A stretch of 27,308 bases of DNA, taken from the IMG/VR virus record IMGVR_UViG_3300028388_004789, positions 1 to 27,308 of that record; one strand, given 5' to 3'. Origin of the DNA: a virus. Made by a program: the position numbers and the translations under genes. Each line of letters begins with the position of its first letter. The first letter of the stretch is position 1. The notes under the pieces were generated by a model. That model worked only from the letters and a program-made list of their open reading frames with translations. It was not told the origin of the DNA and did no database searches. This document shows positions 23,333-25,914 of this stretch, piece after piece.

Positions 23333-24043
23333 ATGGCTTTACCATCGCTGAACTCAGCACCTAAGTATGAATTAACAATTCCGTCAACTCAACAAAAGAT
23401 TAGATTTAGACCTTTTCTAGTAAAAGAGCAAAAGGTTCTACTTTTAGCTTATGAGACTCAGGACAAAAAACAAATTATCCAATCTATTTTAGATACAGTT
23501 GAGTCATGTATTGAAGATACAGTAAGAATTTCTAGCCTGACCACATTCGACGTTGATTATATCTTCACTCAAATTAGAGGAAAGTCTGTTGGAGAAAAGG
23601 TTGAGTTATCAATTCCATGTAATAGTTGTGAAACTCCAAACGATGTAATTGTTAATTTAGAACAAATAGAAATTGATGTACAAGAACAGGAAAAAATAGT
23701 TAAACTCACAAATGAAATTTCTATTAAGTTAAAGTATCCTGATTACTCATCTTTAGTAGCAAATGAAAAATTCTTTAACTCAGAATCTACGTCTGAATTA
23801 ATGTTGGAGATACTATACAGCTGCATTGATTCTATTATGGCTGAAAACGAAAATATCGTGGTGAAAGATGAGCCAAGAGAAGAAGTAGTTAAGTTTGTAG
23901 AATCAATGACATCAGAACAATTTAATAAGATTACAGAATTTGTACAAACAATTCCAACAATGGAACACGCAATTAAATTTAATTGTAGTAATTGCGGGGA
24001 AGCAAACGAAAGAATTTTAAGAGGACTTGACGATTTTTTTTAA
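23333..24043 (+). CDS. 26: Baseplate hub assembly chaperone gp26 (zero-frame product)
   Basis: A 236-aa member of the T4 baseplate protein family that includes gp26 (208 aa) and gp51. The N-terminal SLNSAPKYELTIPSTQQKIR then FRPFLVKEQKVLLLAYE (residues 24-41), and TFDVDYIFTQIRGKSVGEKV (71-90), follow the family pattern closely. Two CxxC pairs, C96/C99 and C218/C221, form a probable zinc site. It has a strong AGGAG site at 23322-23326, six bases before ATG. The last two sense codons are TTT TTT before TAA, within a run of eight T. The gene lies just before the tape measure, where phage tail-assembly chaperones usually stand. Confidence 0.87.
   Translation: MALPSLNSAPKYELTIPSTQQKIRFRPFLVKEQKVLLLAYETQDKKQIIQSILDTVESCIEDTVRISSLTTFDVDYIFTQIRGKSVGEKVELSIPCNSCETPNDVIVNLEQIEIDVQEQEKIVKLTNEISIKLKYPDYSSLVANEKFFNSESTSELMLEILYSCIDSIMAENENIVVKDEPREEVVKFVESMTSEQFNKITEFVQTIPTMEHAIKFNCSNCGEANERILRGLDDFF
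24034..24040 (+). promoter_or_regulatory. Slippery heptamer T_TTT_TTT for -1 frameshifting at the gp26 stop
   Basis: In the gp26 frame the sequence reads GAT TTT TTT TAA. The T of GAT and the two TTT codons make the canonical X_XXY_YYZ heptamer, placed directly before the stop. Slipping back one base continues into a 60-codon open frame. A seven-base stem (24060-24066 with 24078-24084) lies downstream and could stimulate the shift. Confidence 0.65.
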
Positions 24044-24222
24044 TTAATCTCTCTCATGAAACTCTAGAAAATTATTATAGAGTTAACTTTCAACTTCTAC
24101 AAAATTTTCATTATTCACTGCATGAAATAGAAGATATGATACCTTGGGAGAGAGAAATTTATCTATCAATGTTAATTGATGATATTAAAGAAAAAAGCGA
24201 GAGAGCAAAGCAACAAGGATAA
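24040..24222 (+). CDS. C-terminal extension of gp26 reached by -1 frameshift (60 codons)
   Basis: In the -1 frame from the slippery run the sequence encodes LINLSHETLENYYRVNFQLL onward, then a short helix HEIEDMIPWEREIYLSMLID and a charged end (KEKSERAKQQG), with TAA at 24220-24222. A TGA closes the same frame three codons before the T run. No ATG, GTG or TTG occurs before an internal ATG at 24136, which would give only 28 residues. The WEREIYLSML pattern resembles the second part of tail-assembly chaperones (lambda T-like). The product would be a gp26 fusion of 296 residues. The tape measure ribosome-binding site (AAGGA, 24215-24219) lies in its last codons. Confidence 0.65.
   Translation, partial: LINLSHETLENYYRVNFQLLQNFHYSLHEIEDMIPWEREIYLSMLIDDIKEKSERAKQQG
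24060..24084 (+). other. Stem-loop downstream of the gp26 slippery site
   Basis: AACTCTA at 24060-24066 pairs perfectly with TAGAGTT at 24078-24084 around an 11-base loop. The stem starts 19 bases after the heptamer, rather far for a classical stimulator, and is only seven pairs with two G-C. Confidence 0.4.
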
Positions 24223-24228
24223 TAAAAA

Positions 24229-25914
24229 ATGGCTGCAACATTAGCTGATGTAACTGAAAAACTATCGAATCAAAACGAAATTCTTGTTGACGTTAACAAG
24301 AATATGAGTAGTGTGTCGACTAATTTATCAGCCTTTTTAGATTCTTTAAAAGCTAATAGTGGAGATAAGCTAGAAGAAGAAATAGAAAATAGAGAAAAAG
24401 TAAGACAAAGAGATAAAGAATCTAGAGTACAAGTAAAATCTGGTCTTTTTGATAATTTTGGTTTGCCCGAAGGATTTACTTTAGGTGCCGGCATCGCTTT
24501 TGTTACTGGTCTTGCGGGTGGAATACTTAAGAGAATGGTACCTGCCGCAATTGCACTTGCATTTGCAGATGAGATCGCAAATTTTATTGAGTCTACTACT
24601 GGTCAGAAAGCTCTTGGAGATGCTGTATTTAGAGGTCTTAAGTTAGGATCTCTAGGACTTCTAATCTCTAAAAGATTAGGTGTGATCGGATTCGTTGGTG
24701 GCTCTCTTCTTACACCAAAAGTTCAAGAAGAGATAGGAAAGCTTGAAGATAGCTTTAATATCTTTAAAGAAAGAATGGAGATGTTTTTCAACACGACTCT
24801 ACCGGATCTAAGTGGTCTTATTGGATACGTTGGAAATATACCAGTTGCTTCATTACAATTTTTAAATGCTGCATTAGCAGGCGACTTTGATTCAGAAGAG
24901 TTTAAAAATAATTGGGATGAATTTGGAGCAGCGATTGGTTTACTTGCTTTAATTTTAGCTCCAAAAAGTACGCTGTTAACAGCTCTTGCAGGTGTTACTG
25001 CAGTCATAACCAGATCGGACAAAATTTTAAAAGGATTAGTATTTGGAGGAGCAGCAGCTACTAGTGCGGCTGTATTAGCTCAAATAGAAAAGGCTAACAC
25101 TAATCAAATCAAAAATTTATCTAGAGCTGAACTTGATAAGCTTACTAAGCAAGGTATTACTCGAAATCTTGAAGGAAAACTATTTGATACTAGAACCGGT
25201 ACGGTATTAAGTCCAGAACAAGCTCGAGGTGCTTTGACAGACATTGGTGTTAAGAACCCAATAAACTCTAGATTGGCTTCTAAATCTCCTACATTTCAAA
25301 AGTTATTGTCCGCCGGAAGAAGAGTACCATATTTAGGTGCTGCAATCTCCGCTGGTTCTTTAGCTGCAACATTAATGGGTGGTGGATCTTCAGAAGAAAA
25401 AATCACTGACTTTGGAAGATTCTTTGGTGGTACTACGGGAGCAGTAACACTTGGAGCACTTGGCTCACTTGCAGGAGGACCTTTAGTTGGTATACCTGCA
25501 GGGTTACTTGGCTTTGGTGCTGGAGAGGCTGCGGGAGAGTGGTTAGCTCAGAAGATATTAGAAGAAGCTGGAATGATTAAAAAGTCTTCAGCAAATGTTC
25601 CTACACCACCATCAGCTGAAGAACTTCCAACTTCAGCATTTAGTGTAATGGGTGGAAGAGACATGGCGCTGTCTATGAGATCTGATGCTAATGCTCAAAG
25701 ACTGACTGCACCACCACCTAGATCCGGTGGATTAGAAGGGTATGCTTTAGCAGACATGATTGGTGAGTTTATGGCAAAGGGTAGTGGACCAGTGATTGTG
25801 ATGGACAATAGTAACCGATCAATAAATTCAAGCGGTGTTACCAATCAAGCTATGATAACACCGCCTGCTGCGGTTTACGATAAGTACGACTATATGAATG
25901 CTAGTCGAGTTTAA
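24229..25914 (+). CDS. 29: Tape measure protein, gp29-like
   Basis: A 561-aa protein close in length to T4 gp29 (590 aa), which sets tail length and is inserted through the tube. The N-terminal 80 residues are charged and coiled-coil-like (TEKLSNQNEILVDVNKNM). The middle has several long hydrophobic Gly/Ala-rich segments (for example FTLGAGIAFVTGLAGGILKR and SLAGGPLVGIPAGLLGFGAG). The C-terminus is polar and includes a Pro-rich linker (VPTPPSAEELPTS). Such alternation of helical, membrane-prone and polar parts is typical of tape measures. The gene follows the gp26 chaperone frames, with an AAGGA site nine bases before ATG, and its stop overlaps the convergent gp32 stop. Confidence 0.8.
   Translation: MAATLADVTEKLSNQNEILVDVNKNMSSVSTNLSAFLDSLKANSGDKLEEEIENREKVRQRDKESRVQVKSGLFDNFGLPEGFTLGAGIAFVTGLAGGILKRMVPAAIALAFADEIANFIESTTGQKALGDAVFRGLKLGSLGLLISKRLGVIGFVGGSLLTPKVQEEIGKLEDSFNIFKERMEMFFNTTLPDLSGLIGYVGNIPVASLQFLNAALAGDFDSEEFKNNWDEFGAAIGLLALILAPKSTLLTALAGVTAVITRSDKILKGLVFGGAAATSAAVLAQIEKANTNQIKNLSRAELDKLTKQGITRNLEGKLFDTRTGTVLSPEQARGALTDIGVKNPINSRLASKSPTFQKLLSAGRRVPYLGAAISAGSLAATLMGGGSSEEKITDFGRFFGGTTGAVTLGALGSLAGGPLVGIPAGLLGFGAGEAAGEWLAQKILEEAGMIKKSSANVPTPPSAEELPTSAFSVMGGRDMALSMRSDANAQRLTAPPPRSGGLEGYALADMIGEFMAKGSGPVIVMDNSNRSINSSGVTNQAMITPPAAVYDKYDYMNASRV
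25832..25864. other. Perfect nine-base inverted repeat near the tape measure/gp32 junction
   Basis: GCGGTGTTA (25832-25840) pairs with TAACACCGC (25856-25864) around 15 bases. The right arm can alternatively pair with GCGGT at 25870-25874. Read on the minus strand, about 50 bases past the gp32 stop, the hairpin is followed by TTGAATTTATT and resembles an intrinsic terminator. Confidence 0.5.

Follow-up and report, generated by a model that had tools for sequence, protein, structure and literature searches.

A predicted −1 frameshift in the gp26 tail assembly chaperone gene of marine T4-like phages, with a conserved internal Shine-Dalgarno sequence and a covarying downstream helix

We analyzed a 27,308-nucleotide stretch of viral DNA (IMG/VR record IMGVR_UViG_3300028388_004789, positions 1 to 27,308; hereafter the window) that carries a homologue of T4 gene 26. 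Sequence comparison indicates that this gene very probably encodes the short form of a tail assembly chaperone (TAC-N), and that a −1 frameshift at its end would give a 34.4-kDa long form (TAC-NC), as in the lambda G/GT system. The features on which this reading rests are as follows.

23333..24043, + strand: gp26 homologue, predicted short tail assembly chaperone (TAC-N), 236 amino acids (PF12322, E = 1e-60; phrog_150, E = 3e-64; AlphaFold2 mean pLDDT 92)
24019..24025, + strand: internal Shine-Dalgarno (SD) sequence AAGAGGA (best anti-SD match over the final 120 nt of gp26 in 80 loci)
24028..24030, + strand: TGA closing the −1 frame upstream (direct reading)
24034..24040, + strand: slippery heptamer T_TTT_TTT (in-frame T_TTT_TTN in 204 of 204 distinct loci)
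24041..24043, + strand: zero-frame stop codon TAA, adjoining the heptamer (direct reading)
24040..24222, + strand: −1 frame extension (predicted TAC-C, gp51-like), 60 codons and TAA (phrog_634, E = 9e-24; median dN/dS 0.20; gp51 profile match)
24048..24056, + strand: 5' arm of the long-range helix, UCUCUCUCA (RNAalifold, covariation, synonymous null)
24145..24153, + strand: 3' arm of the long-range helix, UGGGAGAGA, in the PWER codons (RNAalifold, covariation, synonymous null)
24060..24084, + strand: possible hairpin within the helix loop, AACUCUA / UAGAGUU (MFE fold, window only)
24229..25914, + strand: candidate tape measure protein gene, directly downstream (tape measure PHROG, E = 2e-4, weak; position; length)

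Direct reading of the sequence showed that the gp26 frame ends GAC GAT TTT TTT TAA, with a T_TTT_TTT heptamer immediately before the stop codon and a T run of 8, as had been predicted to the base. The heptamer is an in-frame X_XXY_YYZ motif, and it lies at the overlap of gp26 with the extension. The −1 frame is open over 60 codons (LINLSHETLENYYRVNFQLLQNFHYSLHEIEDMIPWEREIYLSMLIDDIKEKSERAKQQG, 24040-24219) up to the TAA at 24220-24222. Its earliest ATG, GTG or TTG is the ATG at 24136, the 33rd codon of the 60, leaving the first half of the extension with none; the open frame, the upstream TGA and the late first start all agree with the original prediction. The predicted fusion has 296 amino acids and a computed mass of 34.4 kDa, close to the roughly 34 kDa foreseen, compared with 27.1 kDa for gp26 alone.

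Far from this locus, the window also contains a 67-residue open reading frame on the − strand (339-542) with a radical-SAM-like CNAKCPQC motif; it ends early and is perhaps a truncated gene.

Conservation of the slip site and the −1 frame

Eighty distinct loci, the window included, were obtained by scanning IMG/VR with gp26 and from annotated phage genomes, and searches starting from the gp26 of cyanophage, Methylophilales phage and Rhizobium phage brought in 124 more, for a total of 204. The loci were retrieved by their similarity to gp26 alone, so the presence of the slip site is not an effect of how they were chosen. All 204 loci have T_TTT_TTN in frame in the last codons of gp26 (N is C in 94, T in 84, A in 24, and G in 2), and all 204 have the −1 extension, which in most cases spans 54-67 codons. 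Every one of them uses TTT as the first slip codon, although TTC accounts for 29% of the Phe codons elsewhere in these genes. In the first 80 loci, the 50 codons past the slip site contain no stops in the −1 frame, compared with means of 6.5 in the zero frame and 5.1 in the +1 frame. The median dN/dS of the −1 frame in the same 80 loci is 0.20, with dN below dS in all 431 usable pairs, and the frame is under purifying selection. Both of the checks proposed with the original prediction, conservation of the T run and dN/dS in the −1 frame, were thus borne out.

One locus (L016) has a −1 frame that closes after 30 codons; the near-identical L017, L020, and L023 are complete, and a contig error is likely. 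In the Ackermannviridae loci L095 and L098 and the Vibrio phage loci L096 and L097, the extension is recognizable (MPWHL) at the end of the gp26 homologue; these have A_ATT_TTC or A_CTT_TTC in place of T_TTT_TTN, and some have an ATG overlapping the stop codon.

The length of the T run bears on two other readings of the frame break. A sequencing or assembly error in the homopolymer would explain it simply, since a ninth T would rejoin gp26 and the extension in one frame. The break is nevertheless kept in all 204 distinct loci, the T run is of 6 in most of them, and isolate genomes show it as well, which leaves such an error a negligible probability; the one-base error that had been named as a refuting case was ruled out, as the frame break is the same in every relative. 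Alternatively, RNA polymerase could slip on the T run, adding one U to the mRNA and so producing the fusion by transcription. The run in the window comprises 8 T, and such slippage is documented on runs of 9 A or T in bacteria (PMC5009743). However, 119 of the 204 loci have a run of only 6 T (T_TTT_TTC, T_TTT_TTA or T_TTT_TTG) with the same extension, which disfavors polymerase slippage and homopolymer error alike, and the conserved internal SD and downstream helix described below are signals that act on the ribosome. We therefore regard transcriptional slippage as highly improbable.

A further possibility is that the extension (gp51) is a small gene of its own, started independently or by termination-reinitiation. 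Several cyanophage records annotate it in this way. An ATG forms the fourth extension codon in 63 loci, mostly of the cyanophage type, and an SD near the end of a gene can favor restart (PMC5009743). Rhizobium phage RL2RES (L093) and Stenotrophomonas phage Mendera (L094) combine T_TTT_TTG or T_TTT_TTC with an ATG that overlaps the stop codon (TGATG), and in these two phages frameshifting and reinitiation are both possible. Yet starting at the first available codon in the window would lose the conserved NLSH-NYY half of the extension, the first starts are scattered from the 1st to the 33rd codon across loci, and loci that do have an ATG keep the heptamer unchanged. Moreover, in T4 gp51 the extension is part of one protein with a gp26 domain. 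An independent gene is very unlikely on these grounds, and the original view that the extension could hardly be expressed except as a gp26 fusion is supported by the lack of a consistent usable start across loci.

In the GenBank records behind L082, L083, L085-L092, and L270, the extension is either absent or given as a tiny gp51 with differing starts. Base-level reading of the genomes with a tiny-gp51 annotation (S-SM2 lies outside it) showed that they keep the slip site, so the separate gene once listed as a refuting case was encountered only on paper.

Candidate stimulators on either side of the slip site

Both candidate stimulators of a −1 frameshift cassette, an upstream SD and a downstream RNA structure, are present and conserved. 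In the window, 9 nt separate the GAGG of the SD from the slip heptamer; in the average profile of 80 loci, the best anti-SD match within the final 120 nt of gp26 falls 11-17 nt upstream of it. The mean energy of this site is −6.4 kcal/mol, compared with −4.8 kcal/mol in synonymous shuffles (S.D. 0.15; none of 100 as low) and −1.6 kcal/mol for the gene background. Conserved amino acids account for part of the signal, and the synonymous null allows for them. The cyanophage-type set has this internal SD as well. SD sequences are known to stimulate −1 shifting in dnaX and IS elements (PMC5009743), and this one may do the same.

Folding a gapless alignment of 67 loci with RNAalifold gave one consensus helix, pairing 24048-24056 with 24145-24153 and beginning 7 nt past the heptamer. 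A spacer of 7 nt is the usual stimulator spacing and gives the geometry of a classical −1 frameshift cassette. The loop closed by the helix is large (88 nt), and the hairpin at 24060..24084 is absent from the consensus structure of the 67 loci. An Rfam search of the slip-site region returned no match.

Covariation is found at the two pairs with the most freedom at third codon positions: columns 15/120, with U-A in 31 and C-G in 29 of the 67 loci, and columns 18/117, with C-G in 55 and U-A in 5. None of 500 shuffles reached the observed covariation score, and 92% of cells pair in the helix register compared with 51-81% in slid versions. We counted minimum changes on a gp26 tree of 108 distinct helix-type loci. 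Columns 15 and 120 require 14 + 14 changes separately and 19 jointly, and columns 18 and 117 require 11 + 10 and 13; the neighboring control pair 24/111, outside the helix, requires 11 + 29 and 38. In independent comparisons, the partner followed suit in 5.0 and 4.7 cases and hardly ever changed in the opposite direction, and the sign tests alone reach just a median p of 0.06 because there are too few phylogenetically independent pairs. Pairing between the arms is more than 1 S.D. better than in synonymous shuffles in 98% of loci of both helix-type sets and in 31% of cyanophage-type loci.

The cyanophage-type loci have local structure instead, within the first 50 nt after the heptamer (mean z −2.0), and in several of their lineages long hairpins start 5-6 nt past the heptamer. 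Across this diverse set RNAalifold found no shared structure, yet strong hairpins form when sequences are folded singly. In L231-L256, L083, and further loci of this type, such hairpins take the place that the helix has in the clade of the window; AGUAUGGCUCA...UGAGUCAUACU is one example.

From its position and conservation, the helix probably stimulates slippage. It might serve another role, in mRNA stability or in control of the tape measure gene, and merely lie near the slip site; about 75 nt separate the end of its 3' arm from the candidate tape measure start, as such a role might have it. Its start 7 nt past the heptamer and the local hairpins at nearly the same place in cyanophage-type relatives argue against that explanation, which we consider unlikely. 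We lean slightly toward a broader reading, in which a helix reaching across about 100 nt of −1 coding sequence drives frameshifting in the TAC genes of marine T4-like phages and is maintained by compensatory changes in the clade of the window and the Methylophilales phages. Cyanophage-type relatives would use local hairpins, with SD and slip site fixed, so that stimulators turn over and the slip site does not.

Under the frameshift reading, ribosomes translating gp26 would meet the internal SD, then T_TTT_TTT, and then the helix 7 nt downstream. The majority would terminate at the TAA at 24041 and release gp26 (TAC-N), whereas a fraction would shift by −1 on the heptamer and continue for 60 codons, giving the 296-residue fusion (TAC-NC). 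We infer slippage, and with it expression of the fusion, from the sequence. In E. coli constructs, U_UUU_UUU shifted less readily than A_AAA_AAG (PMC5009743), and the fusion may therefore be a minor product.

Relationship of gp26 and its extension to T4 gp26 and gp51

The window gp26 matches PF12322 with 205 bits (cut-off 24.5) over profile positions 2-218 of 219. Its extension has a match (E = 9e-24) in the gp51 family phrog_634, which is annotated as "baseplate hub assembly catalyst", and a profile of the extension matches residues 207-246 of T4-like gp51 (E = 6e-7); a Pfam search of the extension gave nothing significant. The match of gp26 to gp51 stops at gp51 residue 201, and gp51 consists of a gp26-type domain plus about 48 residues homologous to the extension. 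One alignment (A5) was excluded because the gp26 C terminus was misaligned against gp51. By profile comparison, the extension is homologous to the C terminus of T4 gp51, in line with the earlier suggestion that it resembles the second half of tail assembly chaperones. T4 has two PF12322 genes (26 and 51), and each of 15 other phage genomes checked has one.

As a stand-in for the fusion of the window, we modeled a T4-type gp51 from IMG/VR. The AlphaFold2 models of gp26 (pLDDT 92) and of this gp51 (pLDDT 91) have nearly the same order of helices and strands, and the three helices added in the gp51 model correspond to the extension. A weak fold match of the gp26 model to the solved HK97 tail assembly chaperone (2ob9; E = 1.3, prob 0.41, TM 0.20/0.41) is suggestive at most. 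Sequence searches of the PDB with gp26 and gp51 profiles gave nothing credible, a PDB fold search with the gp51-type model gave no match, and the gp26 model matched only gp26-type and unnamed proteins among viral models.

A short form and a C-terminally extended long form, encoded before the candidate tape measure gene, are what is expected of a TAC pair, and this gene order fits a TAC. T4 gp51 shows TAC-NC as one protein. Position and a weak match make 24229..25914 a candidate for the tape measure gene. If the lambda model (PMC5009743) carries over, binding of the tape measure protein would fall to the part shared by both forms, and the extension would bring in tail tube subunits; the short and long forms may act together on the tape measure protein.

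Comparison with known systems

Frameshifting in T4-like TAC genes has a precedent. An abstract by Vladimirov et al. reportedly names T4 genes 26 and 51 and places frameshifting in other T4-like groups, and the TAC genes concerned are said to belong to the same gene family as the window's gp26. As relayed by two later papers (PMC10274946, PMC12846349), that study (Vladimirov, Gautam & Davidson 2022, Virology 566:9-15) established which genes of T4-like phages encode TACs. The PRFect paper (PMC10274946) draws on it for the statement that some T4-like phages encode the short form in one gene and the fused long form in another, and the Adele paper (PMC12846349) cites it for known poly-T −1 signals in T4-like TAC-N genes. 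Insofar as these accounts describe them, such genes resemble the window in their poly-T −1 signal and short/long product logic. The central claim, frameshifting in T4-like TAC genes, is accordingly not new, having been published in 2022, and here the original prediction, which knew of no description for the T4-type gp26 chaperone, was mistaken. What the present analysis adds to the T4-like genes as relayed is the covarying helix and the internal SD. We found no description of an SD or a helix at the T4-like TAC slip site in the open papers searched, and this stimulator anatomy appears to be the new part as far as that literature shows.

The lambda G/GT system (Xu, Hendrix & Duda 2004, as summarized in PMC5009743) has a −1 shift near the end of the chaperone gene, an extension in the −1 frame, and a tape measure gene next to it, the arrangement predicted for the window; the protein family of the window differs by sequence, and its slip site is poly-T. 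The TAC genes of Vandenendeviridae and Andersonviridae (PMC12846349) have a poly-T −1 shift at the end of TAC-N like that predicted for the window, but belong to other phage families and carry the motif GTTTTT. E. coli dnaX shares the internal SD, slippery heptamer, and downstream RNA structure, but its heptamer is A_AAA_AAG and its shifted product is the short one, whereas in the window the shifted product would be the long one and the helix loop is large. In T4 itself, gp26 and gp51 both match PF12322 over its length, and gp51 adds the C-terminal part homologous to the extension; these are two divergently oriented genes with no frameshift, whereas the window has one gene with a slip site.

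A 2016 recoding review described the G-T frameshift as widely conserved "except T4" (PMC5009743). Together with the 2022 paper, our data make T4 the alternative case, with two genes, and the relatives examined have one gene and a frameshift signal. The data also point to a widespread annotation gap, as cyanophage records either leave the extension out or list it as a tiny gene 51 of its own. The conserved SD and helix provide a ready set of candidate natural frameshift stimulators.
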